The position numbers and the translations under genes are program-made. The notes beneath the pieces were generated by a model that saw nothing but the letters and a program-made list of their open reading frames with translations, made no database searches and was not told the DNA's origin. This document shows, one piece after another, positions 14,459-63,804 of a stretch of 64,000 bases of DNA. The DNA is from Gammaproteobacteria bacterium (GTDB lineage Bacteria > Pseudomonadota > Gammaproteobacteria > Eutrophobiales > Eutrophobiaceae): contig SCUJ01000006.1 in the NCBI GenBank assembly GCA_004297165.1, positions 496,001-560,000 on the forward strand, read 5' to 3'. Within the stretch, counting starts at the first letter, position 1. Every line of letters begins with the position of its first letter.

Positions 14459-14503
14459 AATACGGCGAATCATTGTTTAGTAATAATCGTTGGAGCAGAG
14501 CGT

Positions 14504-14866
14504 ATGGCTAATTTAATCGAACAACTGGAATCCGAGCAGATGAACAAGGAAATTCCTGATTTCGATCCGGGCGACACCGTCGTGGTCAAGGTCAAGGTCA
14601 AGGAGGGGCAAAGAGAGCGAATTCAGGCGTATGAAGGCGTCGTGATAGCCAAACGCAACCGGGGAATGAATTCCTCATTTACCGTGCGGAAAATCTCGTA
14701 TGGCGAGGGCGTGGAGCGGGTATTCCAGACCTACAGCAGCAGCATCGAGGGCATAGAAGTGAAACGCAAAGGGCATGTGCGCCGCGCCAAGCTGTATTAC
14801 ATGCGGGATCTGCGCGGCAAGGCGGCCCGGATCAAGGAAAAGGTTAAAACCACAACCGCGGAGTAA
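14504..14866 (+). CDS. rplS: 50S ribosomal protein L19
   Basis: L19 lies at the 30S-50S interface. The 120-aa protein has the [14 protein letters not shown] and [16 protein letters not shown] blocks and the [20 protein letters not shown] tail. Normal length, last ribosomal gene of the rpsP operon. Confidence 0.97.
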
Positions 14867-14895
14867 ACTGCCCGATTTGGGGCCGGGTTCCTGGA

Positions 14896-15819
14896 TTGGC
14901 TGTGTCAGCGCCATTACCCGCGGAATCGGCCCCTCTCTCTAACTCGCTGCGCTTGATAGCGCAGTTTCTGGATGTCCTGTGGATGGAGCGGGGGTTAAGC
15001 GAAAACACGCTCAAGGCCTACCACAGCGATTTATCTGACTTTGCCCGTTGGCTGGCCGCCAGGGAGTCAGATCTGTTACAGGTCGACAACTCCAAACTGT
15101 TGTCCTATCTTTCCAGCCGGCCTGCCTCGGCGCGAACCACGGCCAGACGACTTTCCAGCCTGCGCCGATTCTATCGGCAAATGGTCCGCGACGGGCGCTG
15201 CGCAATGGACCCATCCATGGATATCGACTCGCCGCGTCTGGGGCGTTCGCTGCCTAAATCGCTGACCGAAACCGAGGTGGAACAACTGCTGATAACCCCG
15301 GATATCGAAACCAGCATCGGACTGCGCGATCGGGCGATGCTGGAGACGCTTTATGCCACGGGCCTGCGGGTTTCCGAATTGGTATCCCTGCGGCTGGACC
15401 AGATGAATCTGCGCCAGGGCGTGGTGCGCATCAGAGGCAAGGGCGACAAGGAGCGGTTGGTTCCGCTCGGGGAAGAGGCGGTTTACTGGATACAGAAATA
15501 TCTCGCTCACGCCCGTCAGGAACTCTTCCCACATCGTCCTGACGCCACGCTGTTTCCATCCTCGCGCGGACAACTAATGCAAAGGCAGACCTTCTGGCAT
15601 GCGATCCGGCGGTATGGGGTCAAGGCCGGGATCAAAGGTCGGATCTCGCCTCATGTTCTACGGCATGCCTTTGCCACTCATCTGCTCAATCATGGCGCTG
15701 ACCTGCGAGTGGTTCAGATGCTGCTCGGGCACAGCGACATATCGACCACCCAGATATATACCCATGTGGCGAGGGAACGACTGAAGAAACTGCACGCTGC
15801 ACACCATCCCCGAGGGTAA
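14896..15819 (+). CDS. xerD: Site-specific tyrosine recombinase XerD
   Basis: XerD, with XerC, resolves chromosome dimers at dif near the division septum. The 307-aa protein has the SAM-like N-terminal core-binding domain and a complete catalytic set: Arg in ATGLRVSEL, Lys in GKGDKER, His and Arg in HVLRHAFATHLL, His in LLGHSDIS and Tyr in TTQIYTHV. The assigned start is TTG 14896; GTG 14902, in frame, is equally possible. XerC is the close alternative. XerD is preferred because dsbC is nearby, as in the enterobacterial xerD-dsbC-recJ order, here interrupted by an inverted ATPase gene. Confidence 0.88.
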   Translation: MAVSAPLPAESAPLSNSLRLIAQFLDVLWMERGLSENTLKAYHSDLSDFARWLAARESDLLQVDNSKLLSYLSSRPASARTTARRLSSLRRFYRQMVRDGRCAMDPSMDIDSPRLGRSLPKSLTETEVEQLLITPDIETSIGLRDRAMLETLYATGLRVSELVSLRLDQMNLRQGVVRIRGKGDKERLVPLGEEAVYWIQKYLAHARQELFPHRPDATLFPSSRGQLMQRQTFWHAIRRYGVKAGIKGRISPHVLRHAFATHLLNHGADLRVVQMLLGHSDISTTQIYTHVARERLKKLHAAHHPRG

Positions 15820-15855
15820 TGCTGGTAACGCTCGAATCACTTGTTGGCAGACGGT

Positions 15856-17643: not shown

Positions 17644-17780
17644 GTTGATAAGTCCAGTTCCTTTCCCGGCGATCCGGTTTCATATAATATAACAGCAATG
17701 GCAAAACCGGGCTGTGAATGACATTACTCCCCGCCAGCCTGTCCCAAGGCCAAGAACCATATATATCCAATGGTGGAGCA

Positions 17781-18509
17781 ATGAGAAATCTTCGAACCGC
17801 TCTGATTTACCTGTTCTGTTGTGCGCTTTACCCCGTCGCCGATCTGTCCGCCGCGGAATCCGCCCCGGAGGCGCGAATCCGTGCGGCGGTCAAAGAACAA
17901 TTTCCCGAGTACAAGGCGGGCTCGATTCGAGAGTCGCAGATCCCTGGACTTTATCAGGTAATGCTTGGCGCTGAAGTCGTCTATATGTCCCCGGATGGCA
18001 GGTTTATAATCCAGGGCGACCTTTATGACCTCGAGAAGAAAGAAAACCTCAGCGAAAAGGGACGGGAGCAGGCCAGGATTGAAGCCCTTCGATCCGTGCC
18101 TGAAGAAGAATTCATCGAGTTTGCCCCCGAGAATCCTGCCTGGACGATTTATGTCTTCACCGATATCGAGTGCAGCTTCTGCAGGCGGTTCCACAAGGAT
18201 ATCAAGCAACACAATGCCAACGGGATTGCCGTGCGTTATCTGGCCTTTCCCCGGAGCGGGATCGGGTCGAAGACCTACCGCAACATGGTCTCGGTCTGGT
18301 GCGCGCCGGATCGCCATACGGCGCTGACCAACGCCAAACTGGACAAACTGCCGAAGGATACCTCATGCGATAATCCGGTCAGCCGTCATTACGAACTCGG
18401 GCGGGATGTCGGAGTCAGCGGCACCCCCGCAATCTACACCGAGCAAGGCGTGCATATCGGCGGGTACCTTAGTCCCGAGGAAATGCTGGAGGCGGTGAAG
18501 GGTTCTTAG
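17781..18509 (+). CDS. dsbC: Periplasmic thiol:disulfide interchange protein DsbC
   Basis: DsbC is the dimeric periplasmic disulfide isomerase kept reduced by DsbD. The 242-aa protein has a signal peptide (basic MRNLR start, hydrophobic core, cleavage near LSAAES) and a DsbC N-terminal dimerisation domain. The thioredoxin-like domain has the active site CSFC instead of the common CGYC, and a second cysteine pair lies near CAPD and TSCDN. ATG 17781 with GGAG just upstream is preferred over the longer frame from 17718, because the signal peptide begins there. Its end overlaps the converging DUF3108 gene by 4 bases. Confidence 0.88.
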   Translation: MRNLRTALIYLFCCALYPVADLSAAESAPEARIRAAVKEQFPEYKAGSIRESQIPGLYQVMLGAEVVYMSPDGRFIIQGDLYDLEKKENLSEKGREQARIEALRSVPEEEFIEFAPENPAWTIYVFTDIECSFCRRFHKDIKQHNANGIAVRYLAFPRSGIGSKTYRNMVSVWCAPDRHTALTNAKLDKLPKDTSCDNPVSRHYELGRDVGVSGTPAIYTEQGVHIGGYLSPEEMLEAVKGS

Positions 18510-19240
18510 TCTTCGGTGGTTACGGACAGCGATTCAAGCACAGCGATTGTAGTGGCGCCATCCGGTTCGATAGTTTCGACCTTGATTGGCAGATAATCCA
18601 GATTCGGCGCGCACCAAAGCACCGTGCTGCGTTCGCTGCCGGGCTTGAATCTTTCCAGTTTGAGGGCATGAAAGTCCCCCATGGGGGTTTGCACAATTTC
18701 CTTGCCCAGGGTGACGAAATCATACTGCTTCAGCTTGCCGCCATCGGCCACCGTATAGCTGATATCCGTCATACCCAGCGCCAGGTCCCGCATGATCGAG
18801 AGCTGGTACAGCAGTTTGTCGGTGATTCTCGGCTGCATCCGCATCCGCCAGCTCGAACCGTTCACGGTGGTCGTGATCTGTTCATTCTCCCAATTGAACC
18901 GGATCTCCACCTGCCTCTCCTGTTTACCGCCAGCATGCCGATAGCTGTAGAAATCCGGTTTGATCTCCTTGCCATCAAACCGCCACTCGCTGCTTTCGGT
19001 GATGATATCGCGACGGATCAGGGCGAGGAATCCGACCGGCCGCGTTTCTGAGCGATAGCGATAGCCGCCCTGAGGCGAGACCGAGAAGGTTCTGGTCATG
19101 GCGGCGATGCGGGCGCCCGTGCTGTACAGCGAGTAGTCCGCGGTAAAAAAGCGGGGCAGCCCGGCTTCGGCAGTGCAACAGCGCGCTGCCAGACAGAGTA
19201 TCAAGAATGCCGCCAGCGCGCCTGTCAGGGTTTGTTTCAT
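18506..19240 (-). CDS. Exported DUF3108 domain protein
   Basis: The 244-aa protein begins with a signal peptide (MKQTLTGALAAFLILCLAARC), then a beta-rich region matching the DUF3108 family. Recognisable pieces are the YRYRSET start, DFYSYRHAGGKQERQVEIRF, and the FHALKLERF and APNLDYLPIKVE ends. Members are predicted periplasmic or outer-membrane-associated proteins of unknown function. The start is set at ATG 19240 rather than 19279, because the signal sequence begins there. It converges on dsbC and is divergent from waaA. Confidence 0.8.
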   Translation of the reverse strand: MKQTLTGALAAFLILCLAARCCTAEAGLPRFFTADYSLYSTGARIAAMTRTFSVSPQGGYRYRSETRPVGFLALIRRDIITESSEWRFDGKEIKPDFYSYRHAGGKQERQVEIRFNWENEQITTTVNGSSWRMRMQPRITDKLLYQLSIMRDLALGMTDISYTVADGGKLKQYDFVTLGKEIVQTPMGDFHALKLERFKPGSERSTVLWCAPNLDYLPIKVETIEPDGATTIAVLESLSVTTED

Positions 19241-19352
19241 CGGGATTTTTTCGAGGATACTGTGATAAGATTCGGCCATTATATGATCACGGTCACCTCA
19301 GCAACAGCCGACTGCGCCATACCCTTGATGTTGCGTTAAATGCCAAAACCGG

Positions 19353-20651
19353 ATGGCTGACCGACTCCGACATCTATATTCCCTCTCGCTTTACCTGCTT
19401 GCCCCCTGCGCGTTATTAAGATTGTTCTGGTTGGGCCGCAGGGATCCGGATTATAGGCTCGGTTGGGCGGCGCGTTTCGGATTACAGCAACTCCCCCAGG
19501 CCCCGCATCCCCTGATCTGGATTCATGCGGTTTCCGTGGGCGAAGTCAAGGCCGCATCCAGTCTGGTGCATCGGCTCCGCGCCAACTATCCGGATTGCCA
19601 TATCCTGGTGACGACGATTACGGCGACAGGCGCCGCCATCACCAGGCAAATATTCGGCGACAAGGTCATGCATTTGTATCTCCCCTACGATTTGCCGCAC
19701 GCCATCAGGGGATTTCTCGACGCCATACGACCGGAAATCCTGATTGTCATGGAAACCGAACTTTGGCCGAACTTGTATCATCAGGCTAACGAACGCGGCA
19801 TCAAGATTGTTCTGGTCAATGCCAGATTGTCCAACCGCTCTTTCGCCCGATACCGGAAGGTACAATTTTTTATGCGGGAGGTCTTGCGTAAGGTGTCCGT
19901 CATCGCCGCACAAACCACGGATGACGCCCTGCGCTTTGGGGCGATTGGCGGCGATCCAGACCGAATTACCATCACGGGCAATATAAAATTCGATGTCACG
20001 CCTGTACACAGCATTGGTCAGGAAGGCGAGGCGGTGCGTGCCTGGTTATCGAGCCAACGTCCCGTCTGGATTGCCGCAAGCACTCATGAGGGTGAAGAAA
20101 GGTTGGCATTGGACGCCCACAAAAAGGTGCTCGAACGTCATCCTGATTGCCTCCTGATTATCGCGCCGCGTCATCCGGAACGATTCAAACAGGTGCTTCG
20201 TATGGTGTTTGAAAGCGGTTATAACGCCATCAGCCGGAGCATGACGGCACAGGTGTCGGAGCACATCCAGGTTTTGATCCTGGACAGCATGGGCGAACTC
20301 CCCGTGTTCTACGCGGCCGCCGACTTGGCCTTCGTTGGCGGCAGCCTGCTGCCACATGGCGGTCATAATGTCCTGGAGCCGGCCATGGCGGGCATACCTG
20401 TGTTAACAGGCAGACATACGGATAATTTCCGCGAGATTACCAGGATGCTGGAGGAGGCCGGTGCCCTGCGCCGGATCGAGGATGAGAATGAATTGGCCGC
20501 CGAGGCGATCAAGCTGCTCGCAAACGCGGAACTGCGGCATGTCATGGGTCAGGCTGGCAAGGAGGTCGTGGCGCAAAACCGTGGCAGCGTGGATCGGGTG
20601 ATGGAATTAATCCGTACATACCTGCCATTCAAGGCAGATGTTTCAATTTAA
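19353..20651 (+). CDS. waaA: 3-deoxy-D-manno-octulosonic acid transferase
   Basis: This enzyme (KdtA, GT30) adds Kdo to lipid IVA at the inner membrane, the first core step of LPS. The 432-aa protein has an N-terminal hydrophobic anchor and the GT30 blocks IWIHAVSVGEVKAA, METELWPNL, AASTHEGEE, IAPRHPERF and GGSLLPHGGHNVLEPA. Length is normal. It implies a Gram-negative LPS-bearing cell. The stop lies 4 bases from the converging fdhA stop. Confidence 0.95.
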   Translation: MADRLRHLYSLSLYLLAPCALLRLFWLGRRDPDYRLGWAARFGLQQLPQAPHPLIWIHAVSVGEVKAASSLVHRLRANYPDCHILVTTITATGAAITRQIFGDKVMHLYLPYDLPHAIRGFLDAIRPEILIVMETELWPNLYHQANERGIKIVLVNARLSNRSFARYRKVQFFMREVLRKVSVIAAQTTDDALRFGAIGGDPDRITITGNIKFDVTPVHSIGQEGEAVRAWLSSQRPVWIAASTHEGEERLALDAHKKVLERHPDCLLIIAPRHPERFKQVLRMVFESGYNAISRSMTAQVSEHIQVLILDSMGELPVFYAAADLAFVGGSLLPHGGHNVLEPAMAGIPVLTGRHTDNFREITRMLEEAGALRRIEDENELAAEAIKLLANAELRHVMGQAGKEVVAQNRGSVDRVMELIRTYLPFKADVSI

Positions 20652-43600: not shown

Positions 43601-43687
43601 TGGTGCCCGGGGCCGGAGTCGAACCGGCACGGCGGTAAAGCCGAGGGATTTTAAGTCCCTTGTGTCTACCTGTTCCACCACCCGGGC
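43601..43687 (-). tRNA. tRNA-Leu (anticodon UAA)
   Basis: This 87-base gene with encoded CCA (TGG at 43601-43603) has a long variable arm typical of class II leucine tRNA. The anticodon loop CUUAAAA in an AGGGA/UCCCU stem gives anticodon UAA. The acceptor stem GCCCGGG/CCCGGGC and GGTTCGACTCC T-arm are intact. Confidence 0.96.
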
Positions 43688-43731
43688 TTTAGTGGGTATC
43701 GTTGTTTCATTATACCGGATGAAGGAGTATT

Positions 43732-43805
43732 TGGAGGCTGGGGTCGGAATCGAACCGGCGTCCACGGCTTTGCAGGCCGCTGCATGACCACTCTGCCACC
43801 CAGCC
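43732..43805 (-). tRNA. tRNA-Cys (anticodon GCA)
   Basis: This 74-base gene has encoded CCA (TGG at 43732-43734), acceptor stem GGCTGGG and discriminator U. The anticodon loop reads CUGCAAA, giving GCA. It lies 44 bases upstream of tRNA-Leu in the same orientation. Confidence 0.96.
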
Positions 43806-43820
43806 TTTGTTCCATAAACG

Positions 43821-43850
43821 AAAAACCCCGAGTCAGAAGATGCCCGGGGC
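43821..43850 (-). terminator. Terminator-like hairpin between tRNA-Gly and tRNA-Cys
   Basis: On the minus strand CCCCG (43849-43845) pairs with CGGGG (43830-43826) across a 14-base loop and is followed by five T (43825-43821). The short stem suggests partial termination after tRNA-Gly, or an RNA-processing signal. Confidence 0.5.
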
Positions 43851-43859
43851 TTGTGAATC

Positions 43860-43935
<76 letters not shown>

Positions 43936-47130: not shown

Positions 47131-48465
47131 TCAACGTTGTTGATCCACAGCGGCCAGATCCTCTCTGATCGATTTTGTGGCCAGCAGAAAATGCACCGCC
47201 GCCCAGGCGGTCGAGATAACCACTACTCCAAGTATCGCATAGCGTAGCGAATCAGTTCCGAGTTGGGGTTGAAGATAATCGCTGGCCATGCCAACACCAA
47301 GCGGCCCGAAACCCATTGCCACGAGATTAACGAAAAATCCGTATATCGACGAGGCCAGCGCCCGGCGTCGGACGCCCGCCATCCCCAGCAACATGGCCAT
47401 GACCGGGCCGAGATACATATGTCCGAAAAACGTCGGAATGATGAGAAACAGCAACGCCGGAATGGGTGTCGGCCACAAATAAACCAGGAACACGAAGGGG
47501 ATCGCAATCAAAATGCCAGCGCCCGAAAGCCACAAATACCAGCGGACGTCTTGAGTCATCTTGACCAGCCGGTCGCCGATCATGCCGCCGAATATGGCGC
47601 CACAGGCGCCCGAGATCCCGAAGACGAAGGCCAGCCAGGTGCCTGCCTCGCCGCTGCTCATGCCGTGACTTCGCATGAAGAAGGACGGTTGCCAGATCCC
47701 CGCCCCCCAGCCGGACATCCCGTAGAGCGCCGCCGCCATACATAAATGACGGCAGGCCGGTCGTCGCCAGAGGTAATAAAAAGTGTCGAGGATGCCGGGA
47801 GTCGATCCAAGCGCCTGTTGCGGTTCATAAAACCCCCTGGGTGGTTCCCGCAGGGTAAGCCACAAGACTATCGCCAGCGCCACGCCGGGCAAGCCCACCA
47901 CCATGAAGGCGCTGCGCCAGCCCAGGAATTCATTGACCCAGCCGCCCACCAGAAATCCGGTCAGTACGCCGAGCGGGACGCTCATGCCGGTGACGGCCAT
48001 GGCCGTGGCGCGGCGTTCCGGTGGAAAGTAGTCGGCGATAAGCGAATTCGCCGGCGGTGTCCCGCCCGCCTCCCCTATCCCGACCCCGACCCGGGCGAGA
48101 AACAGTGAAACGAATCCGGTGGTCAGCCCGCAGATCGCGGTCATCGCGCTCCACAGACAGAGCGCGATGGCGATGATATTGCGGCGATTACTGCGGTCGG
48201 CCACCCAGGCAATGGGAATCCCGCACAGGGAATAAAACACCGCGAAGGCCATGCCGCCCAGCATGCCCAACTCCGTGTCGGTAAGGGAAAAATCCTTTTT
48301 TATTGCCTCCAGCAAGACTGCAAAGATCTGGCGGTCGACGAAATTGAAGAGCGCCACCAATAACAGCAGGACGAGCACATAACGGCGATATACATCCGAA
48401 ATATGGAACGCGGCTGCGCCCCCTTTCAATTCCCCAAACGCGGCGCTACCGGCATGATTGGCCAT
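47131..48465 (-). CDS. MFS transporter (Spinster/anion-cation symporter-like)
   Basis: The 444-aa protein has about 12 membrane helices. It carries the MFS loop motif AWVADRSNRRNIIAIAL between helices 2 and 3 and GVGIGEAGGTPPANSLIADYFPPERRATAM, which is characteristic of Spinster-like MFS proteins. It is divergent from the FAD/Fe-S/FAD cluster with a 246-base shared upstream region, so it may import the substrate of that cluster. That is an inference from position only. Confidence 0.87.
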   Translation of the reverse strand: MANHAGSAAFGELKGGAAAFHISDVYRRYVLVLLLLVALFNFVDRQIFAVLLEAIKKDFSLTDTELGMLGGMAFAVFYSLCGIPIAWVADRSNRRNIIAIALCLWSAMTAICGLTTGFVSLFLARVGVGIGEAGGTPPANSLIADYFPPERRATAMAVTGMSVPLGVLTGFLVGGWVNEFLGWRSAFMVVGLPGVALAIVLWLTLREPPRGFYEPQQALGSTPGILDTFYYLWRRPACRHLCMAAALYGMSGWGAGIWQPSFFMRSHGMSSGEAGTWLAFVFGISGACGAIFGGMIGDRLVKMTQDVRWYLWLSGAGILIAIPFVFLVYLWPTPIPALLFLIIPTFFGHMYLGPVMAMLLGMAGVRRRALASSIYGFFVNLVAMGFGPLGVGMASDYLQPQLGTDSLRYAILGVVVISTAWAAVHFLLATKSIREDLAAVDQQR

Positions 48466-48711: not shown

Positions 48712-50175
48712 ATGATTCCACGTGACAGACTGGAACAGATCGTCGACGCCAAATCCCTGAGCTATGAAGCCACCGTCCTGGATGACTACGCCTCGGACAT
48801 GAGCTTCGTCAACCCGGTGAGACCGGCGTGTGTCGCCAGACCGAAGCAAGCCGCCGAGGTCCAGCAACTGGTCAAACTGGCCAATGAAACCCACACCCCG
48901 CTGATACCGGTAAGTTCCGGCTCGCCACATTTCCGCGGCGACACGGTGCCGGGGAATGGCGGCGCGATAATTGTCGATCTGAGCGGCATGAAACAAATCA
49001 TGTTTGTGGATCGCGACCGGCGCGTGGCGATGTGCGAGCCGGGCGTGACCTTTGGCGAGCTCATCCCGGCTGCCCGTAAAGCCGGACTGCGCCTCAACAT
49101 GCCCCTCATGCCGCGTTCCACCAAGTCGGTGGTCGCCAGCATACTGGAGCGCGAGCCGGTCACGCTGCCGAAATATCAGTGGGACGCCTCGGACCCGCTG
49201 GCCTGCGCCGGCGTCTGCTTCGGCAATGGCGCCGAATTCCGCACCGGCCAGGCGGCCGGCCCCGGAACGCTGGATGAGCAATGGGCGGTCGGGGGCATGC
49301 AAAAGGCCCCGTATGGCCCGGGCACGCCGTCGCTGCACCGTTTGATCCAGGGCGCCCAGGGGACGATGGGCATCGTCACCTGGTTGTCGATGCGCTGCGA
49401 ATTGCTGCCAGCACTCGAACAACCCTTCGTTGTCGGATCCAGCAATCTCGATGAATTGCTCGAACTGGCCTACTGGCTTATTCGTCTGAGCGCCGTCAAC
49501 GAATGCTTCATCCTCAACAGCTCCAATCTGGCGGCCATGTTCTCCGATTCGGCTGCCGAGGGTCGCAAACTCAAGACCACGCTACCCGCCTGGACCCTGT
49601 TCTATGCAGTGGCTGGTTATGAGTACTTTCCGGAAGAAAGGGTTTCTTCACAAATTTCCGACATCACTACGATTGCCCAACGTTTGAACCTTGAAGCAGT
49701 CCATGCCGTGGGCGGACTTACCGCCAATGCCATACTGAAGGCCGCACAGCAACCCTCTGCCGATCCCTACTGGAAGCTTCGTCCCCAGGGTGGTTGTCAG
49801 GATATCTTCTATATTACCCAGAGGGAAAAGATTACCAGGCAGATTGGCGTAATGAATGAACTGGCTGATCGTTCCTGCTATTCCGCCGCCGATCTCGGTG
49901 TCTATATCCAACCGATGGTCCAGGGCTCCAGTTACCACTGTGAGTTCAATCTGTTCTATGACGTCGCCGACGCCAAAGAATGTAATCGGGTGAAGGAACT
50001 GTCTGAATCCGCCACCCGGAGCCTGCTGAACCATGGCGCATTCTTCTCGCGCCCGTATGGGAACAGCGCCGGGACGATCCTCAACCGGGATGCCGCCAGC
50101 ATCGAGGTGTTGCGCACCTTCAAGAGGATCTTCGATCCGAACAATGTCATGAACCCTGGGAAAGTGTGCTTCTAA
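48712..50175 (+). CDS. FAD-linked oxidoreductase 1 (VAO/GlcD-like) of a three-gene dehydrogenase cluster
   Basis: The 487-aa protein has the FAD_binding_4 (PCMH) fold: VARPKQAAEVQQLVKLANE, the PVSSGSPHFRGD pyrophosphate-binding region and VDLSGMKQIMFVDRDRRVAMCEPGVTFGEL. The C-terminal FAD-oxidase part ends FKRIFDPNNVMNPGKV. The family oxidises alcohols, 2-hydroxy acids or phenols. The substrate is not evident. A strong GGAGGGGG ribosome-binding site precedes the ATG. It is followed by the Fe-S gene after 54 bases. Confidence 0.85.
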   Translation: MIPRDRLEQIVDAKSLSYEATVLDDYASDMSFVNPVRPACVARPKQAAEVQQLVKLANETHTPLIPVSSGSPHFRGDTVPGNGGAIIVDLSGMKQIMFVDRDRRVAMCEPGVTFGELIPAARKAGLRLNMPLMPRSTKSVVASILEREPVTLPKYQWDASDPLACAGVCFGNGAEFRTGQAAGPGTLDEQWAVGGMQKAPYGPGTPSLHRLIQGAQGTMGIVTWLSMRCELLPALEQPFVVGSSNLDELLELAYWLIRLSAVNECFILNSSNLAAMFSDSAAEGRKLKTTLPAWTLFYAVAGYEYFPEERVSSQISDITTIAQRLNLEAVHAVGGLTANAILKAAQQPSADPYWKLRPQGGCQDIFYITQREKITRQIGVMNELADRSCYSAADLGVYIQPMVQGSSYHCEFNLFYDVADAKECNRVKELSESATRSLLNHGAFFSRPYGNSAGTILNRDAASIEVLRTFKRIFDPNNVMNPGKVCF

Positions 50176-50229
50176 ACACCACTGCCTGACATACAGAAAC
50201 CAGCATATATAATCCGGGAGGTAACGGTA

Positions 50230-51498
50230 ATGGGATTGGAACAATACAAAGGCGACATGGAGATGTGTTGCCGGTGTTCGGCCTGCAAATGGATCCCCCT
50301 GCAGAAGGTCAGCGGACAGCAATTCGCCAACGCGTGCCCCAGCATTTCCAGATACAACTTTCACAGCTATTCCGGCGGCGGCCGCCTGAACATCGGCGCC
50401 GCGGCGCTGAAGAACGGCGACAACTATACCGACAAGCTGCTCGACATCGTCTATAACTGCCAGATGTGCGGCGCCTGTGGCGTGTCCTGTAATTATGCGA
50501 TGGATATGGAGGTAATGGCGCCGATTACCGAATTCCGGATCAAATGCGTCGCCGACGGCAAGACCCACCCTGCCCTCGATGCGGCGATCGCCAATCTGCG
50601 CAAGACCGGTTCCATCGTGCCGGCGAAAGGCAAACGCGGGGCTTGGGCGGCCGGATTAAAATTGAAGGATGCCGCCAAGGAGAAGGTTGAGGTATTGCTG
50701 TATGTCGGCGATCTCACCAGCCATGACCCCAAGCTGCATAAACTGGCGCGGGCGACGGCGAAGATCCTGCAAAAAGCGGGCGTCGATTTCGGCATTGCCG
50801 GCGACGCCGAGACCTCGACCGGCGGACAGGCCTATGAGATGGGTTATCAGGAGGATTTCCTGACTCAGGCCAGGAAGAACATGGACTACGTCAAACAGTC
50901 CGGGATCAAGACCGTAGTCACGGCATCTCCCCACGCTTATCAGGCATTCAAGGTGCTGTACGATAAATTCAAGTTGCGCGGCGACCTCAAGGTGTATCAC
51001 ATCTCGGAATACATTCAGCTTTTGCTGAGTGAAGGTCGGCTTAAACCAAACCACCGAATCGACCTGGCGGTGACCTATCACGACCCCTGTCACCTCGGGC
51101 GGCTGGGCGAACCCTGGCAACACTGGGAGGGCAAAAAAGTCCCAGGCGATCGTTTCGTATTCGATCCGCCTAAGGTATACCGGCGCGGCACACACGGGAC
51201 CTATGCGGCGCCGCGGGATGTGATCAACAGCATTCCAGGTGTGAAGCTCACCGAGATGACCCGCATCAAGGAATATGCCTGGTGCTGCGGGGCTGGCGGT
51301 GGAGTGAATGCATCCAACCCGGAATTCTCGCAATGGACGGCGCGGGAACGCATCGCGGAGGCCGAAACGACCGGGGCCGAGGCGATCGTGACCGCCTGTC
51401 CGTGGTGCGAAAACAATTTCAATGCGGCGATCGAGGCCGCCGGCAGTCGTCTGAAGGTCTTCGACCTCGTCGAACTGTTCGAACAAGCGATCGCCTAG
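50230..51498 (+). CDS. Fe-S electron-transfer protein with CCG domain (GlcF/HdrB-like)
   Basis: The 422-aa protein starts with a Cys-rich ferredoxin part (CCRCSAC near 13-19, CQMCGACGVSC near 78-88, each with a distal Cys). It ends with a CCG domain: HDPCHLGR, WCCGAGGGVN and CPWCENNF. This is the layout of GlcF and of heterodisulfide-reductase-related subunits that collect electrons from flavoprotein dehydrogenases. It sits between two FAD proteins with short gaps (54 and 13 bases), so the three products probably form one complex. Confidence 0.85.
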   Translation: MGLEQYKGDMEMCCRCSACKWIPLQKVSGQQFANACPSISRYNFHSYSGGGRLNIGAAALKNGDNYTDKLLDIVYNCQMCGACGVSCNYAMDMEVMAPITEFRIKCVADGKTHPALDAAIANLRKTGSIVPAKGKRGAWAAGLKLKDAAKEKVEVLLYVGDLTSHDPKLHKLARATAKILQKAGVDFGIAGDAETSTGGQAYEMGYQEDFLTQARKNMDYVKQSGIKTVVTASPHAYQAFKVLYDKFKLRGDLKVYHISEYIQLLLSEGRLKPNHRIDLAVTYHDPCHLGRLGEPWQHWEGKKVPGDRFVFDPPKVYRRGTHGTYAAPRDVINSIPGVKLTEMTRIKEYAWCCGAGGGVNASNPEFSQWTARERIAEAETTGAEAIVTACPWCENNFNAAIEAAGSRLKVFDLVELFEQAIA

Positions 51499-51511
51499 GG
51501 GGGTAAACGTC

Positions 51512-52996
51512 ATGACCATGAGTAAGGATGTATACGCGGAATTCGAGGCCATAGTCGGCCCGGAATTTATTTGCGCCGACCCGGCGATCATGCCGTCCTA
51601 TCACAACACCGCGCATGCGGCGGTGATCCTGCCGGAGAATACCGCGCAGGTACAGGCGATCATCCGGCTGTGCAACAAGCACAAGGTGCGTTTCCGCCCG
51701 GTCTGCACGGGCTGGACCGGCCGGTTCGAGCCGGGGATGCTCTATATGGATCTGCGGCGGATGAACCGCATCATCGAGATCAACGAAAAAAATATGTACG
51801 CGGTGGTCGAACCGTATGTGATCTCGGCGCAATTGCAGGCCGAATTGATGAAACGCGGCCTGCACATGAACGTCAAGGGTGCCGGCACGAACTGCTCGGC
51901 GATGCTGCGCGGGCACGGTCATCTGGACCAGAGCACCAGCGGCGACGATCGCAACCATCTGGCCATCGAGTGGGTCACGCCCGCGGGCGATATCGTGCGT
52001 TCCGGCTCCTTGGGTTCGGCGGACGAATGGTTCTCCGGCGACGGCCCGGGACCCTCGTTGCGCAGCATCCTGACCAGCGCGGTGCCGCCCGGCGCCACTC
52101 CCGGCGTATTCACCAAGGCCGCAATGAAGATCTACCACTGGCCGGGACCGACCAAGTTCCCGGTCGTCGGGGCATCGCCGAATTATCAACTGAGCGAGGT
52201 CCCGCCGAACATGATGGCGCGCTATTACAGTTTCCCGTCGGTGGATCAGATGTGGCAGGCCGAGCTTAAACTCGGCGAGGCGGAGATTGCCTTCGAATTG
52301 ATGGGTTTTAATATTGCCATGGTCGCGGCGAACATCAGCACCAGCAATGAAGAAGAAGAAGAAACCTTCAAACGTCTCAGCAAGGAGATCCAGGGTCCCG
52401 GCTTTTTCATCATCATTGCCGGCAACTCGGCGGCCGATTTTGCCTACAAAAAACGCGTCCTGAATCAAATCGTCAGCGATAACAACGGCAAGTCCGTGAC
52501 CTCGCTCGAAGACCCGCGGATCGAAGGCATCCTGCTATGTCAATGCATCCGCATCTCGGCATCCATCCGCGAGACCTTCCGTCCCGGCGGCATGTTCAAG
52601 TCCATCCCGGTGATGGGCCAGCGGGATCTCACCATCAAGTGGGCCATCGGCGCCGGCAAGGCGAAAGAACCGTTAATCGCCAAGGGGCTGATCGTCGACG
52701 ACGGCGGGGCCGCCTTTGGCTGGGGCGTTGAACAGGGACACCTCGGCAAGACGGAGATCTTCTGCAAGTTCGATCCGCACAACGCAGAGGCCCAGAAGGC
52801 CGTGGATGCCTGGCACTTCGAGCAGAGCGACCGGGCCTTCAAGGAACGCTATTTCGCCCTGCTGGGTTACCGCAATGAACCCAATGCGACGGAGGAGATC
52901 GGCCAGGCGCTGTCGAGCTATCACAAGTGGTGGAACGAGATCCAGAAGGCCTTCGATCCGAACCGCGTGTCGCCCGAGGGCGGTGCGTTGGTCTGA
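51512..52996 (+). CDS. FAD-linked oxidoreductase 2 of the same cluster
   Basis: The 494-aa protein is a second full-length PCMH-type flavoprotein (AAVILPENTAQVQAIIRLCN, FRPVCTGWTGRFEPGM, VKGAGTNCSAMLRGHG), ending IQKAFDPNRVSPEGGALV. It is clearly diverged from the first FAD protein in the operon. In GlcDEF the second flavoprotein (GlcE) is short, whereas this one is full length, so the cluster is not a standard glycolate oxidase. An acidic run near residue 282 (NEEEEET) is a local oddity. The start may be the ATG at 51512 or 51518. Confidence 0.85.
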   Translation: MTMSKDVYAEFEAIVGPEFICADPAIMPSYHNTAHAAVILPENTAQVQAIIRLCNKHKVRFRPVCTGWTGRFEPGMLYMDLRRMNRIIEINEKNMYAVVEPYVISAQLQAELMKRGLHMNVKGAGTNCSAMLRGHGHLDQSTSGDDRNHLAIEWVTPAGDIVRSGSLGSADEWFSGDGPGPSLRSILTSAVPPGATPGVFTKAAMKIYHWPGPTKFPVVGASPNYQLSEVPPNMMARYYSFPSVDQMWQAELKLGEAEIAFELMGFNIAMVAANISTSNEEEEETFKRLSKEIQGPGFFIIIAGNSAADFAYKKRVLNQIVSDNNGKSVTSLEDPRIEGILLCQCIRISASIRETFRPGGMFKSIPVMGQRDLTIKWAIGAGKAKEPLIAKGLIVDDGGAAFGWGVEQGHLGKTEIFCKFDPHNAEAQKAVDAWHFEQSDRAFKERYFALLGYRNEPNATEEIGQALSSYHKWWNEIQKAFDPNRVSPEGGALV

Positions 52997-53134: not shown

Positions 53135-53407
53135 ATGAACGCCGTGGTGATTGAACACGTAAAGGTCGCCGAGCTGCCCGAGGCTTGGCGCAACAAGCTC
53201 GCCATCCCCGCCGATGCGCGCGTCACGGTGCGGATCGAGGATGAAGCCGCTCAGCCCACCCCCACCGAGCAGACGTCCGATCAGTCCAGCATCGATCCCG
53301 CGTTCGGCATCTGGCGCGACCGCGAGGACATGGCCGATGTTGAAGGCTACGTTCGCAAGCTGCGCGCGTCGCGTTACAATCGTGATGGCTCGCGCAAAGA
53401 CGGTTGA
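53135..53407 (+). CDS. vapB: VapB-type antitoxin
   Basis: The 90-aa protein has a C-terminal toxin-binding tail, DPAFGIWRDREDMADVEGYV followed by LRASRYN, which is typical of antitoxins paired with PIN toxins. The N-terminus could form an AbrB-like or MazE-like strand region (VKVAELPEAWRNKLAIPADA). ATG 53135 with GGAG 6 bases upstream is preferred to GTG 53123. Its stop overlaps the toxin ATG by one base. Confidence 0.82.
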   Translation: MNAVVIEHVKVAELPEAWRNKLAIPADARVTVRIEDEAAQPTPTEQTSDQSSIDPAFGIWRDREDMADVEGYVRKLRASRYNRDGSRKDG

Positions 53408-53793
53408 TGTCGGTGTTGGTCGATACCGATGTATTGATCTGGCATCTGCGCGGCTACAGCCAAGCTGCGCAGTGCCTTGACCGTCTGCCGCAACTCATGT
53501 TGTCCGCCATGAGTTATCTGGAATTGCTGCAAGGCATGCACAACAAGGAAGAACTCACCGCCGTACAAAAGATGTTTGCGCTGCGCCACGCCAACGTGCT
53601 GCCGCTCACCGCCGCGATCACGCAACGCGCCACCGAGTTGATGACCACGCTGACGCTAAGTCACGGTTTGCAAGCTGGCGATGCCCTTATCGCTGCCACG
53701 GCCTTGGAACATCAACTGCCCCTGCTCACCGGCAACAGCAAACACTTCACGTCGATTGCCGGACTCAACGTCGAGAAGTTCGCGCTGTCATGA
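53407..53793 (+). CDS. vapC: PIN-domain ribonuclease toxin (VapC)
   Basis: The 128-aa protein has the PIN fold with its acidic residues in LVDTDVLIWHLRG, SYLELLQG and AGDALIAATALEH, and the C-terminal PLLTGNSKHF block. VapC toxins cleave tRNA or rRNA and are neutralised by the upstream antitoxin. The pair is autoregulated in known systems. Its 3' end faces the candidate immunity gene 103 bases away. Confidence 0.9.
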   Translation: MSVLVDTDVLIWHLRGYSQAAQCLDRLPQLMLSAMSYLELLQGMHNKEELTAVQKMFALRHANVLPLTAAITQRATELMTTLTLSHGLQAGDALIAATALEHQLPLLTGNSKHFTSIAGLNVEKFALS

Positions 53794-54387: not shown

Positions 54388-56006
54388 CTAACAGTATTCC
54401 TCATAGCGATTAGAGCACATGAAATGCCACATATGCCAATCAGCCTCTTCCTCTGTATTAAGCCTCTTGGTAGAAGGAGTATTAACATATCTCTCCTTTG
54501 GCAGATACTCACCTGGTTCTTTCGGTAATAGGTCCCCGCTGAGGATGTGACCCCAGACGGGACCTAATCTTCCTTCTTCATTCCGTCGATAAAATTGCCA
54601 GACATGTGTAATCGCGTGAATAAAGAGAGCTATATATGAGCCTGAGCATCCAGAGATGAAATCCTGACAACTCAGCATCGATTTAGGCATGTGTATAATG
54701 TTACGGGGGGTAAAATCACCACCAAAATTTCCATCGTACGCCACTTTCGCTAGATCCTCCGGTAGTTTGGAAAATTCCGATAGCGCGGCCTTTAATTCAT
54801 TCCTGATTAAATTTCGTAATTTTTTCAACTTTTCAGCATCCCTCTCCGCAAGTTCAAGCAACCCCACCTTCCGCTTCAGACGGGAGCCTTCGATGGGTTC
54901 GTAGACCTTGACCCTGACGCTCTTCTCAAAATACCTCCCTGCCGTCGCCTGCGCGTTCTGGCCGTTGCTCGCGGCCTCCGCCGCGGGTGTGGTGTGGCTG
55001 ACACCGGGCCCACTTCCATCCGGATAGCCCCCGGGATACCCCGTATTGTTGACGCCGCCATTAAGTCCTTCATTTACCCATAGCCAATCTTCTACGTTCG
55101 CCCACGAGCAATAATTTGACCCCGCACACGGCTGCTGCGATGGCCGTTCGCCCGTAACGATACACAAATAAAGCGATGGACAATCCATCGTCGTGCCTGA
55201 GGGGTAGGGTGCGGGGGCTCTGATCACGATCTCCTCGATCGTTTCAAACCCACTCGGGTCCGTATACCGCAGCGGATTATTCAGCACATAGCTGTACCGA
55301 TTGTAACTCTGCGAGTAGCCGGGGTGCGTGATCAACGGATCGGCGGAGAGCATCCGGCCCAGCATCGGATCGTAGACCCGCCCGTTCATGTGGATGATGC
55401 CCACATCATCCAGGTGCTCGTGCCCGGTGTAGCCGCGCGGGGTCGCCGTCGGGTAGAGGGGGGCCGTGGCCGGACTCCAGTCCTCCGGGTGACCCCAGGC
55501 GTCGTAGCTCAGCTCTTCGCTGACGTTGGCCTGCTCATCGGTGATGACGCTGACGTTGCCGAGGTGATCCTTATGCAGGTAGTGGGTGGTTTCGAGACTG
55601 CCGCTGTGTTTGATGAGGGCCACCGCCCCGCCGCCGGCGCGGACGGTGTAGACGTGGTGACCTGGCCGGTGAGGCCGTTCGTCTGCTGGATCCGGTTTCT
55701 ATCGGCCCCGTAGGTAAAGCTGAGGGTGACGCCGTTGGCCGTGATGGATTCGGGCAGGTTGTCCTGGGTCCAGGTGAGGTCGCGGGGGCTGTTGCGGCTG
55801 AAGTCATAGCCCTGGAGCAGGTTGCCGTTCGTATCGTAACAATGCGGCTGGCCGCCGGCCGTGGTCACGGCGTGCGGGCCGGGGGCGACGGCCGCGGTGG
55901 GGCAAGCCGTATCAGGGAGTTCGGCGTAAGCATAGGTCCCGGCGATCCCCGGTTTGATCTGCAGGTTGCCGAGGGCGTCGTTGCTCGACGAAAGATGATC
56001 CTGCAG
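54388..56006 (-). pseudogene. 5'-truncated, frameshifted RHS repeat protein tip with zincin-like C-terminal toxin domain
   Basis: Only the 3' end of an RHS gene is present. The upstream part (56006 to about 55655) encodes RHS repeats (YDTNGNLLQGYDFS, LTWTQDNLPESI). The downstream part (about 55650-54388) encodes the RHS core (YLHKDHLGNVSVITD, GRVYDPMLGRMLSADPL, YSYVLNNPLRYTDPSGFE) in another frame, so a single-base shift lies near 55650-55662. After DPSGFE comes a variable region of about 280 aa. It has an HAITHVWQ segment, close to HExxH-type zinc peptidase motifs but with Ala in place of Glu. The 5' end abuts the stop of the next gene. Confidence 0.8.
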
Positions 56007-57047: not shown

Positions 57048-58463
57048 TTATTCCGGAGGAGACACGCCCACGCCATGGCGTAAGGCGTCTTCTTCTTCGA
57101 GTTCAACCATTTTCCGGCTGTTGCTGGGGATATGTGTCGGGATCAGGAAGAAACTGGTTACCGTTAAAACGATCACCCCGGCGATCGCGAATAAAAACAT
57201 GCTGACCGGGGGCGCCGGATCCATCTTGAAATAAAATGTCGCGGCCCAGGGGCTTGCGACTGCCCCGATCCGCGAAAACGTCTGCGCCATGCCCACGGCG
57301 GAGGCGCGAATCTCGGTCGGGTAGGAATGGGCGCTGACCGCGTACAGAAATGCCTGCATGCCATTGATGGATGCCCCCGCAACCAGACACGCGGCGAGCA
57401 AGGAAGGATTTGCGACGTTATCCACAAGCAACAGCATGGCCAGCGCCGCTGTCGCCAAGCCGCCCACCGCGGCGAGTATGGTCCCGACATATTTGGAACC
57501 GAACCAGTTGATGAATAAGGCCCCGCCAACGGATCCCAGCGCGGCGCCGCCGCTGAAGACAGTCAGTCCCATCCTGGATGTGCCTGCCTCCAGACCGGAG
57601 TTGGTGAGCAGCGTCGGCAGATAGTTGGTGAACACATAGAGCACGAAACTGTTGATCGCGAAGGCGGTCCAGATGAAGGTTGTACGGGCGCGAAAATCGG
57701 TATTCCACAAGGTCGAAAACCAGTGGCTGGAACGTTTCCCCGCTTCAACGACAACAAACTCCTCGGTCCCGTCGAACCGGTTTTCGCCCAGCAATCGATT
57801 TAGAGTGTGCGCCAGGCGTTTGTGCAGTTCCGGGTGTTTGGCCAGGTACTTGGGCGATTCCGGCAACAGGAACGAAAACAGCACGAACATTGCCAGAGGG
57901 ACCATGGAACCCACCAAAAACATGCCGCGCCAGCCGCCGCTCTCGAGCACCGGTCCCGAGATCAATCCGCCCAAGGCCCCGCCCAGAGGTATTGCCACGA
58001 TGACAGCGGCCACGACCACGCTCCGGATGTTTTTGTTGGTCCATTCCGACACAAGTGTCGTCGCCAGAGGGGTAATCCCGCCGAGACCGAAACCCATGAT
58101 CAGCCGGCCTGTTATCAAGATATCGAGGTTACTGGAGAAATAACATATCAACGAGCCCAGGAACAACAACGAGAGACAGGAGACATAGGCTCGTTTACGA
58201 CCGACGCGATCGCCCAGCCAACCGAGCAGGACAGAGCCAATCGCCATACCAATCAATCCGGCGCTGTTCACCGGCCCCAGATCGCCGCGGGTGATGCCGA
58301 AATCAGCGACCAGCGGATCGGCGATATAGCCCATGATGAACAAATCGAAACCGTCGGCCAGCATGATGACGATCATCATCAAGGCAATGCCGCAGGGCAT
58401 CCAGAAAAAACCCGCGGAATCGATCACCGCGCCAACATCAACTTTATTATTTTTCATAGTCAT
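57048..58463 (-). CDS. MFS transporter, aromatic acid:H+ symporter (AAHS)-like
   Basis: The 471-aa protein has 12 predicted helices with the DGFDLFIMGY motif in helix 1, characteristic of AAHS carriers, and GWLGDRVGRKRAY in loop 2-3. Members import aromatic acids such as 4-hydroxybenzoate, protocatechuate or benzoate, and some carry other carboxylates. No ring-cleavage gene is in the window. It is divergent from the NmrA-like gene, and the 185-base gap contains an 18-bp palindrome. Confidence 0.85.
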   Translation of the reverse strand: MTMKNNKVDVGAVIDSAGFFWMPCGIALMMIVIMLADGFDLFIMGYIADPLVADFGITRGDLGPVNSAGLIGMAIGSVLLGWLGDRVGRKRAYVSCLSLLFLGSLICYFSSNLDILITGRLIMGFGLGGITPLATTLVSEWTNKNIRSVVVAAVIVAIPLGGALGGLISGPVLESGGWRGMFLVGSMVPLAMFVLFSFLLPESPKYLAKHPELHKRLAHTLNRLLGENRFDGTEEFVVVEAGKRSSHWFSTLWNTDFRARTTFIWTAFAINSFVLYVFTNYLPTLLTNSGLEAGTSRMGLTVFSGGAALGSVGGALFINWFGSKYVGTILAAVGGLATAALAMLLLVDNVANPSLLAACLVAGASINGMQAFLYAVSAHSYPTEIRASAVGMAQTFSRIGAVASPWAATFYFKMDPAPPVSMFLFAIAGVIVLTVTSFFLIPTHIPSNSRKMVELEEEDALRHGVGVSPPE

Positions 58464-60463: not shown

Positions 60464-61003
60464 TCACACCTCGACAAACTTCGCGCCGAAACAGCCGGCG
60501 ATTTGCATGGCATCACGCAACAACTCCGACACCACGAGCGCGCCGGAACCGTCGTTGACATTGAAGATGTGCATGCCTTCCGGCACCCGTTCGCGATCCA
60601 GATAGAGTTTGGTCACCGGACGATAACGCAAGGCATGCTGGTCATTGCAGGTTATTTTACTGTAGACAGACCGCGATTCATCGAGGCAGTCGAGAACTCG
60701 TCTCACCTTAAGTATGCCATAGCCGGGGGTATTGCTTACCATAATGGGCTTAATCTCCACATCGGCGCCCGCGATCTTCTCGATAACTGCCGCCAGTTCC
60801 AGACCGATGATCGGCAGGTCGAAACTGGTCATGGTGAATTCCAGCGGTCTGCCCCGGCGGCTGATTTCAACGCTCGGCATCTCCCCGGCGGATGTCTGGC
60901 CGTCGCCGGCATGTAGAAACGCCGCTCCCCGCCAGCGTTTCACATCCCCCAAATACCAGCGCCCGGGGATCCGGATGTCATCGATGAGTTGAAAATATCG
61001 CAT
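60464..61003 (-). CDS. Imm11-family (DUF1629) protein
   Basis: The 179-aa protein matches the Imm11 / MXAN_0049 family as I remember it: GYGILKVRRVLDCLDESRSV in the middle and HIFNVNDGSGALVVSELLRDA then FVEV at the end. Members act as immunity proteins in polymorphic toxin systems or stand alone. No toxin gene is adjacent; the RHS tip lies about 4.5 kb away. It converges on the SDR gene with a 16-base gap. Confidence 0.7.
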   Translation of the reverse strand: MRYFQLIDDIRIPGRWYLGDVKRWRGAAFLHAGDGQTSAGEMPSVEISRRGRPLEFTMTSFDLPIIGLELAAVIEKIAGADVEIKPIMVSNTPGYGILKVRRVLDCLDESRSVYSKITCNDQHALRYRPVTKLYLDRERVPEGMHIFNVNDGSGALVVSELLRDAMQIAGCFGAKFVEV

Positions 61004-61234: not shown

Positions 61235-61867
61235 CTAGGCGCTGGCTGTTTTTGCGCGGGTATCGATCTTTTGTAACGAGGGCGAGAGGGAGATAAGGGC
61301 CTCGGTCAGGACAAAAGCGGCCTGGAGAGCCGAGGTCGGACACAACGGGAAGCACTCTTTACAATCCCAGCATTCCACGGCGGCAAGCTCGGGGATGAAG
61401 TTGATCTCGCGACAGGGACCGCGATCCAGAAAGCCGACGACGTTTTTCTTTTTGACCTCGGCGCAGTAGCGCACACAGAGCCCGCAAAGGATGCAGAACG
61501 ATGGCTCCTTGGGGAAACGGTCCTTGTCGGCATGGTAATCCTCCGCAATCGCCTTCAAGACCTCGGATTCCGGGGCATAGGCCAGCAACTGCTCGGTCAG
61601 TACCTTGCGAATCTTGTCGATCTGGGGGCTGCGGGTCCAAACCACCAGGTCGTTCGCCGCGGGATAGATACAGGCCGCGACCAGGTTGGTTCTGCCACCG
61701 GATTCAGCCTCCACCGTGCAGAGCCGGCAGCCGCCAAAGGATTCCAGTTTCTCGTGGTGGCAGACCGTGGGGATATCGATGCCGGCCTTGCGCGCGGCAT
61801 CCAGGATGGTCTTGCCGGCCTCGACGGTGACTTCCTTGCCGTCGATCTTCAAACGGATCTCGCTCAT
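61235..61867 (-). CDS. HoxU/NuoG-N-terminus-like iron-sulfur subunit of an NADH diaphorase
   Basis: The 210-aa protein has an N-terminal 2Fe-2S domain (about 1-80, cysteines in TVCHHE, GGCRLC and VAACIYP) and a ferredoxin part with two clusters (FCILCGLCVRYC and CWDCKECFPLCP). The intermediate His/Cys cluster segment normally found in HoxU and NuoG is missing: the region 85-130 has no cysteine. It passes electrons between the NuoF-like subunit and a partner enzyme. Its ATG overlaps the stop of the NuoF-like gene (ATGA). It is the last gene of the operon. Confidence 0.87.
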   Translation of the reverse strand: MSEIRLKIDGKEVTVEAGKTILDAARKAGIDIPTVCHHEKLESFGGCRLCTVEAESGGRTNLVAACIYPAANDLVVWTRSPQIDKIRKVLTEQLLAYAPESEVLKAIAEDYHADKDRFPKEPSFCILCGLCVRYCAEVKKKNVVGFLDRGPCREINFIPELAAVECWDCKECFPLCPTSALQAAFVLTEALISLSPSLQKIDTRAKTASA

Positions 61868-63804
61868 GTTGCCTTGCTCTCTTTCTCGGATTTGGTTTCC
61901 CTGATGAGGATCCTCGCTTCCTCCGGAATCGCCGCGGGAACCGGGTCGCCGGAGAGCCGCATGGCCGCCCCGAACCGTGTCGGACAGACTTCGAAACAGG
62001 TGCCGCAACGGTTGCATACCGCCTGATCGATGATATGGATCTTGTCCTTGCCGCCCGAGATCGCCCCGGAGGTGCATTTACGGAAGCAGATCAGGCAGGC
62101 CTGGCATTGCTCAGGATCGATGTAGTAGGAGATCAGTTTCTTGCAAACGAACGCGGGACACCGCTTGTTGTGGATGTGCGCCTCGTATTCATGACGGAAA
62201 TAGCGCAATGTGCTCAGCACCGGATTGGCGGCGCTGCGTCCCAGTGCGCACAGCGAGGCGCGGGTAGAGAGGCAGATCTCCTCGAGCAGTTCGATGTCGC
62301 CTTCCTTGCCTCGGCCTTCGGTGATGTCGGTCAGGATCCGGTGCATCTGCTTGATGCCTTCCCGGCAGGGCGAACATTTGCCGCAGGATTCGCCGGAGAG
62401 GAAATTCAGGAAGTAGCGGGCGACATCCACCATGCAGGTGTCCTCATCCATGACGATCATGCCACCTGAACCCATGATGGCCCCGAACTTGGTCAGTTCG
62501 TCGAAATCGACCTGGATATCCAGATGTTCCTCGGGGATGCAGCCGCCCGCAGGACCGCCGGTCTGCACGGCCTTGAACTTCTTGTTTTTCGGGATGCCGC
62601 CGCCCACCTTGTAGATGATGTCCCTGAGCGTGACGCCCATCGGCACCTCGACCAGACCGGTGTTGTTTACCTTGCCCACCAGGGAAAATATCTTCGTCCC
62701 CTTGCTGCCTTTGGTGCCCATTCCGGCGAACCAGTCCGCCCCGTTGTTAACGATCAACGGCACGTTGGCCCAGGTCTCTACATTATTGATATTGGTGGGT
62801 TTGCCCCACAAGCCGCGGGTGGCTGGAAACGGCGGTCGGGCGCGCGGTTCTCCCGCCCTGCCCTCCAGAGAGGCCAGCAGTGCGGTCTCTTCGCCGCAAA
62901 TGAAGGCCCCGGCGCCCCGATGGACCTCGATGCTGAAATCGAAACCCGATCCGAGGATGTTCTTGCCCAGCAGGCCGCGCTCCTCCGCCAGCCGGATGGC
63001 GGAAAGCACGTTCTCCACCGCGAGTGGATATTCCTGGCGAACATAGATGTAGCCTTCGCTGGCGCCGATGGCATAGGCGCCGATGATGAGTCCCTCCAGG
63101 ACGCCGAAGGGATTGCCCTCCATCAGCGAACGGTCCATATAGGCGCCGGGGTCGCCTTCATCGCAGTTGACGATGACGTATTTCCTGTCGCCCAGCGCAT
63201 TGCGCGCCGCTTCCCACTTGATGCCGGCCGGGAAACCGCCGCCGCCCCGGCCGCGCAGATTCGCCTTTTTCACCTCGGCGATGACCGCCTCCGGTCCCAT
63301 GTCGAATGCCTTGACCATGGCCGAGTAGCCGCCGACGGCGAGATAGTCGTTCAGATTCTTGGGGTCGAGTTTGACGTTGTTGGCCAAGACACTGCGCTGC
63401 TGGTGTTTATAAAAGGGAATCTCGAATTCGTGAGTGGCCTTTTCGCCAGTCGCCGGGTCCTTGTACAAAAGACGCTCGACGACCTTTTTCTCTTTGACGG
63501 TCTTCGCGATGATCTCCGGGACGTCTTTCGGCGTAACCTGGATATAACTGATCTCTTCGGGCGAGATCACCATGTTCGGACCTTTTTCGCAGAAACCATG
63601 GCAGCCGGTCTTGCGGAATTCCACCGATCCGTTCAAGCCTTGCTTCTCGAACTCCTCATGGATGGCCGCGGCCACCTTGCCGCTGCCGGTGGCGTTGCAC
63701 GCCGTGCCCGAGCAGAGCGTTATGCAGACCTTGTCCGGATCGCGTCCGGCCAGGATCTCCTCACGGAGATGTTCGAGATCGGCGGGTGAATTCAGTTTCG
63801 ACAT
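61864..63804 (-). CDS. NuoF-like flavoprotein with C-terminal ferredoxin domain (HndC/HydB/HoxF type)
   Basis: The 646-aa protein has four parts: an N-terminal thioredoxin-like [2Fe-2S] domain (CSGTAC near 31-36, CHGFC near 68-72) and the FMN/NADH core (LRGRGGGGFPAGIKWEAA, GAGAFICGEETALLASLEG). A [4Fe-4S] segment (ESCGKCSPCREG) and two extra [4Fe-4S] motifs at the end (CQACLICFRKC, CNRCGTCFEVC) follow. This matches the diaphorase subunits of multimeric hydrogenases and related NAD(P)-linked enzymes, some of which bifurcate electrons. The catalytic partner should lie upstream of the window end. Confidence 0.9.
   Translation of the reverse strand: MSKLNSPADLEHLREEILAGRDPDKVCITLCSGTACNATGSGKVAAAIHEEFEKQGLNGSVEFRKTGCHGFCEKGPNMVISPEEISYIQVTPKDVPEIIAKTVKEKKVVERLLYKDPATGEKATHEFEIPFYKHQQRSVLANNVKLDPKNLNDYLAVGGYSAMVKAFDMGPEAVIAEVKKANLRGRGGGGFPAGIKWEAARNALGDRKYVIVNCDEGDPGAYMDRSLMEGNPFGVLEGLIIGAYAIGASEGYIYVRQEYPLAVENVLSAIRLAEERGLLGKNILGSGFDFSIEVHRGAGAFICGEETALLASLEGRAGEPRARPPFPATRGLWGKPTNINNVETWANVPLIVNNGADWFAGMGTKGSKGTKIFSLVGKVNNTGLVEVPMGVTLRDIIYKVGGGIPKNKKFKAVQTGGPAGGCIPEEHLDIQVDFDELTKFGAIMGSGGMIVMDEDTCMVDVARYFLNFLSGESCGKCSPCREGIKQMHRILTDITEGRGKEGDIELLEEICLSTRASLCALGRSAANPVLSTLRYFRHEYEAHIHNKRCPAFVCKKLISYYIDPEQCQACLICFRKCTSGAISGGKDKIHIIDQAVCNRCGTCFEVCPTRFGAAMRLSGDPVPAAIPEEARILIRETKSEKESKAT

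Follow-up and report, generated by a model that had tools for sequence, protein, structure and literature searches.

How benzene is attacked under anaerobic conditions is a decades-old question, and since 2026 a leading candidate is a heterotrimer of the FAD / Hdr-like Fe-S / FAD type, an architecture known since that year (PMC13101534, PMC13416013) and found in strict anaerobes that are hard to grow. Toth et al. reported that proteins #24-26 of Ca. Anaerobenzenivorax ORM2a (WAC08368-WAC08370), encoded in the so-called 'Magic' cluster, were the three most abundant ones of a benzene-degrading culture. Protein #24 was proposed by these authors as the FAD-binding catalytic subunit, two of the four cysteine motifs of protein #25 are incomplete, and the cluster also contains an AMP ligase, MaoC proteins and type III CoA-transferases (PMC13101534). 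In a benzene-degrading sulfate reducer, Musat et al. found that BzS1_12970/80/90 accounted for about one fifth of the detected proteome and had homologues of 23-42% identity in bacteria unable to use benzene (PMC13416013). Identity among the trios of benzene degraders is 63-76%, and the homologues published from outside this clade, at 22-42%, occur in organisms that do not have the capacity to use benzene (PMC13101534, PMC13416013).

Organization and conservation of the A-C-B genes

The window analyzed here is a stretch of 64,000 nucleotides from the genome of an uncultured gammaproteobacterium of 3.53 Mb (13 contigs, 98.95% complete), and three genes on its plus strand encode a trio with the same order as the benzene heterotrimer, that is, FAD (PCMH and FAD-oxidase C) / Hdr-like Fe-S / FAD (PCMH only). 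Subunit A (48712..50175) is a VAO/PCMH-fold flavoprotein of 487 aa with PF01565 and a C-terminal PF02913 domain, subunit C (50230..51498) is an Fe-S protein of 422 aa with Fer4_8 and two CCG matches, and subunit B (51512..52996) is a second PCMH-type protein of 494 aa with PF01565 only and no PF02913. Their predicted masses are 53.3, 46.4 and 54.5 kDa, respectively. The three ORFs are intact and co-directional, with gaps of 54 bases between A and C and 13 bases between C and B. Both coordinates and domains agree with the initial annotation, in which two full-length PCMH flavoproteins with short gaps around an Fe-S subunit had been recognized, but its suggestion that this architecture may be undescribed cannot be maintained, since anaerobic benzene degraders have a heterotrimer of this build as their dominant protein (PMC13101534, PMC13416013).

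A sequence search with one genome per species identified homologues of B at 41 loci. In close relatives, the A-C-B order and a C-B gap of 12-20 bases were present in every complete trio measured, and the A-C gap of complete loci ranged from 29 to 78 bases. The number of loci and the order and spacing kept in relatives indicate that the trio is not a chance grouping. Comparison with locus L018, whose A, C and B proteins are 75, 82 and 88% identical to those of the window, revealed that substitutions fall mostly at the third codon position (44/31/193 for the three positions of B) and, as a consequence, that the genes of the trio are under purifying selection. Promoter, terminator and Rfam scans at the trio gave nothing above chance. 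Elsewhere in the window, three tRNA genes in a row (43604-43935, minus strand) were identified beside pgsA-like and uvrC-like genes.

Subunit features and comparison with described enzymes

The structural model of A (mean pLDDT 75) had as its best match among solved structures p-cresol methylhydroxylase (1dii, E 4.7e-27, TM 0.72 with Foldseek), followed by vanillyl-alcohol enzymes and D-lactate dehydrogenase. The PCMH-type FAD-binding fold is present in both flavoproteins, as PF01565 was found in A and B and the Foldseek E-value of B was about 1e-14. The pyrophosphate loop of A has the VAO length (SSGxPHFRGDTVP) and that of B falls short of the loops of VAO relatives by about six residues, which makes A the likelier of the two to bind FAD for catalysis. 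On these loop features, A is probably the FAD-binding catalytic subunit. The model of B was weak (pLDDT 67), with mouse D-lactate dehydrogenase as top fold match, and FAD binding by this subunit is doubtful.

Subunit C contains two [4Fe-4S] motifs and an intact, noncubane-type CCG domain 2; CCG domain 1 is devoid of its cysteines and reads AETSTGG. The cysteines of this first site were lost in every Pseudomonadota sequence read (the window, L018, L019, L020 and L024; L060 is the same contig as L019), and the other full-length C members keep CCG there. In its two [4Fe-4S] motifs and its CCG domains C resembles the HdrD/TfrB and EtfD-type proteins, from which the Pseudomonadota members differ in keeping cysteines at one CCG site only. 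The best NCBIfam model for C was TfrB, with 128 of 385 bits.

The E. coli GlcDEF complex shares with the trio its two PCMH-type flavoproteins and its CCG Fe-S subunit, and differs from it in the gene order, the full-length B of the trio and the metal ligands lacking in A. GlcD, used as control, aligned with the profile of A over 410 columns at 22% identity. The residues HAGDGNMH and GEHG bind metal in GlcD-type enzymes; they read VQGSSYH and SRPYG in A, leaving one histidine of four, and all members of the subfamily have the replacement FFSRPY unchanged. The homology of C to GlcF extends over its whole length (352 columns, 98% probability). B, with its 494 aa, is not of the short GlcE type, aligned with GlcE at a probability of 0.2% by hhalign and with the first part of GlcD over 197 columns. 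NCBIfam scores were 52 bits for GlcD (cut-off 568), 22 for GlcE (284) and 32 for GlcF (333), and those of GlpC and LdhH were also about a tenth of the curated cut-offs. The scores below cut-off, the lost metal ligands and the comparison with GlcE led us to reject orthology with GlcDEF and LdhH and supported the initial annotation, which had set the trio apart from GlcDEF and had named orthology to a characterized glycolate or lactate system as the finding that would speak against its reading; a search for such orthology gave a negative outcome.

The initial annotation had also proposed a hydroxy-acid dehydrogenase, which in its simple form is unlikely because A lacks three of the four residues that bind metal in enzymes of the GlcD/D-lactate type. 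A more divergent 2-hydroxyacid dehydrogenase of this type, in which A would oxidize an aliphatic or aryl (mandelate-like) acid and C would pass the electrons to quinone, would agree with the GlcDEF-like three-part plan, with the alignments of C and A to GlcF and GlcD, with the lactate dehydrogenase match of B and with the benzoylformate-decarboxylase-like TPP enzyme encoded beside B genes at four Dehalococcoidia loci. However, the lost ligands, the invariant FFSRPY and the very low scores of the GlcD, GlcF and LdhH models make it unlikely as well.

A second possibility is a PCMH-type enzyme oxidizing 4-phenols in which the Fe-S subunit takes the place of the cytochrome, so that A or B would form a quinone methide from a para-alkylphenol or a 4-hydroxybenzyl alcohol. 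It is one particular form of the aromatic reading that we favour below. The best matches of A, in structure and in sequence, are PCMH, vanillyl-alcohol dehydrogenase and eugenol oxidase, and the genome encodes corrinoid methyltransferases and further VAO-type proteins, as expected for lignin-derived phenols. However, the members of the PchF / vanillyl-alcohol oxidase family, although similar to A in fold, have cytochrome c as partner and are only about 20% identical to it, and the Tyr-Arg phenolate motif was not recognized in A by profile alignment, whose identity is low in that region. Moreover, several ordinary VAO-type genes are already present in the genome for such chemistry, and we regard this reading as rather improbable.

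Distribution, genomic context and relation to the benzene heterotrimer

According to the titles given by the submitters, the loci belong to Gammaproteobacteria, Alphaproteobacteria, Acidobacteria, Chloroflexi/Dehalococcoidia, Zixibacteria, Deltaproteobacteria and one actinobacterium, and gene order and spacing recur across at least six phyla. The closest Chloroflexi members are 62-68% (A), 67-74% (C) and 72-76% (B) identical to the window. Pairwise distances of A, C and B in 76 trios, including several paralogous trios per genome, correlated at 0.92-0.95, a value to which shared ancestry contributes; as far as these distances can tell, the three subunits travel and diverge together. The concatenated tree placed the window with L018, then with Steroidobacteraceae and Alphaproteobacteria MAGs (support 100/100), next to Acidobacteria and inside a clade of 28 loci with a long stem (100/100). 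This cross-phylum distribution suggests horizontal transfer, against the proof of which stand MAG contamination and paralogy.

L039 comes from a deltaproteobacterial MAG, and of 395 genomes searched in its phylum 138 contained homologues of C, frequently as three or four copies. The family thus extends well beyond the specialists for benzene, and this compound cannot be the substrate of its members in general. The superfamily of the trio is large and mainly found in anaerobes, and single MAGs of Deltaproteobacteria and Dehalococcoidia contain several of its paralogues. The window genome itself contains a second, paralogous A-C-B trio (L059, G000:C13:673000-692500, positions 7480-11729, minus strand) of about 40/41/31% identity, whose C retains the first CCG site. 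In one genome (L112, G166:C3:260000-279000, positions 6623-15673), two A-C-B trios follow each other in tandem, which suggests diversification of the family by duplication. In addition, the Dehalococcoidia loci L049, L051, L052 and L053 carry paralogues of B in whose vicinity neither A nor C was found; most of these paralogues are located between a URO-D methyltransferase gene and the gene of a benzoylformate-decarboxylase-like TPP enzyme.

Two carriers near the trio were correctly reported by the initial annotation. The first is a divergent MFS carrier (47131..48465, minus strand), a 36% homologue of which adjoins a paralogous trio in another species of the genus (L061). The second, further on, is an MFS carrier of the AAHS (aromatic acid:H+ symport) type (57048..58463, minus strand), with TIGR00895 as best model (259 bits, under the cut-off of 418); in L062, from another species of the genus, a homologue of 89% identity likewise lies convergent to a B-like gene, next to its end. 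From these carriers an organic acid or a phenolic compound had been suggested as substrate. An aromatic or phenolic substrate is favoured by the context.

The bam-type class II benzoyl-CoA reductase cluster begins 8.2 kb after B, outside the trio, with its BamI- and BamH-like end at 61235..63804 (minus strand). Beyond the window (C13:560300-567950) are the FlpD/BamF-, HdrA/BamE-, CCG/BamD-, BamC- and BamB-like genes, the BamB-like protein scoring 789 bits against 4z3w, and BamA (689 bits, over the cut-off of 464) is encoded elsewhere on the same 1.78 Mb contig. The genes at L063 (G000:C13:560001-575000), together with 61235-63804 of the window, form a near-complete bam cluster on a gammaproteobacterial chromosome. 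In the family, of which 53 genomes were covered, only this genus yielded a close BamB. No BamB was found in G017, an 88% complete genome of another species of the family in which the trio is present (B 86-88%), and the trio is therefore not tied to benzoyl-CoA reductase. The AOR-type genes beside some relatives were discarded as BamB, being 23-30% identical to the BamB-like protein of the window genome. Between the trio and the bam cluster there is a small toxin/immunity patch, with genes for a PIN-domain protein (53404-53793), an RHS-like C-terminal fragment (54388-55623) and an Imm11-type immunity protein (60464-61003).

Besides hemE, the window genome has five genes for methyltransferases of the URO-D type. 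In relatives, URO-D genes were found in the fetched flanks of 13 of the 41 loci, for 1.2 expected from the mean density in 14 genomes and 3.8 at the highest density seen, a count in which neighbours vary and related genomes are not independent. One set of the window genome (L184, G000:C13:700000-719900, positions 11945-19694) comprises a URO-D methyltransferase, a corrinoid protein, a 236-aa protein without Pfam domain and a RACo-type activator, and is possibly an O-demethylase; the URO-D, corrinoid protein and RACo genes of this locus have counterparts of 43-53% identity in the set that adjoins the trio L037 of Chloroflexi. Estrogen methylation of the EmtABCD type was rejected for the neighbouring corrinoid genes, as EmtA is MtmB-like (PMC7448270) and the neighbours are of the URO-D type. 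At several deltaproteobacterial loci, EtfAB genes are located next to the trio or within it, and no ETF genes were found beside the window trio; ETF is a plausible acceptor because of this adjacency in related phyla, and quinones, to which the initial annotation had the electrons delivered, are another candidate. Altogether, the branch of the window often adjoins genes for handling aromatic compounds, and the context points to anaerobic aromatic catabolism.

With respect to the benzene heterotrimer, the masses of A and C are nearly equal (53.3 and 46.4 kDa versus 54.5 and 46.5 kDa), and both systems have an Fe-S subunit with some incomplete cysteine motifs and a bam pathway in the genome. By their predicted architecture, the two belong to the same superfamily. 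In contrast, the window B is about 11 kDa smaller than the benzene-type subunit of 65.8 kDa, the host is gammaproteobacterial, and the neighbours of the window trio do not include an AMP ligase, MaoC or two type III CoA-transferases. None of 80 trio neighbourhoods inspected had the other genes of the benzene cluster, and the 'Magic' cluster (AMP ligase and CoA-transferases around the trio) was found neither in the 395 genomes of the phylum mentioned above nor in 63 genomes of one class. L148 matches BzS1 in mass (54.5/47.1/65.9 kDa) and was set aside as an orthologue because its neighbours differ. Set against the published descriptions, the mass of B, the neighbours and the loss of the CCG site indicate that the window trio is most likely a different subfamily, which probably does not act on benzene itself. 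Hence, although the domain order, the bam pathway (as in ORM2a and BPL) and a CoA-transferase gene (PF01144) adjoining the L018 trio would agree with the reaction proposed for the benzene enzyme, that is, flavin-based activation of unsubstituted benzene through addition to an organic co-substrate, this reaction is highly improbable here given the smaller B, the missing neighbours, the distant homologues in organisms unable to use benzene (PMC13416013, PMC13101534) and the widespread, multi-copy superfamily.

Proposed function and its meaning

We consider it moderately probable that the trio is a heterotrimeric flavin/iron-sulfur dehydrogenase of aromatic or phenolic compounds which delivers its electrons via C to ETF or quinone. 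The fold class, the cofactor motifs, the conserved unit and the context are established at the level of sequence, and from them we infer the following steps. A would bind FAD and take a hydride from its substrate, an aromatic or phenolic compound of the lignin type, for which a lignin-derived alcohol, an alkylphenol or an aryl acid are candidates. C would relay single electrons to an acceptor, for example ETF or quinone, and B would complete the complex as GlcE does for GlcD. The products may feed the benzoyl-CoA pathway of the cell. A flavin-based attack by the subfamily, without oxygen, on an inert aromatic compound other than benzene is, in our opinion, very unlikely.

A search of a literature library with few of the subscription journals did not find this subfamily, its cross-phylum spread or the loss of the CCG site described, nor a trio of this kind in a gammaproteobacterium with class II benzoyl-CoA reductase. 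A sister subfamily distributed across phyla provides a comparative set for separating benzene-specific residues from the common machinery, as well as more members to express. The wide spread, with its several paralogues per genome, also means that labels such as 'FAD-binding oxidoreductase' or 'glycolate oxidase' cover an entire class of uncharacterized redox enzymes of anaerobes. Finally, if the attack on an inert aromatic compound were true, the chemistry now suspected in a few strict specialists for benzene would represent a general strategy that has spread horizontally as far as Gammaproteobacteria, Acidobacteria and Dehalococcoidia.
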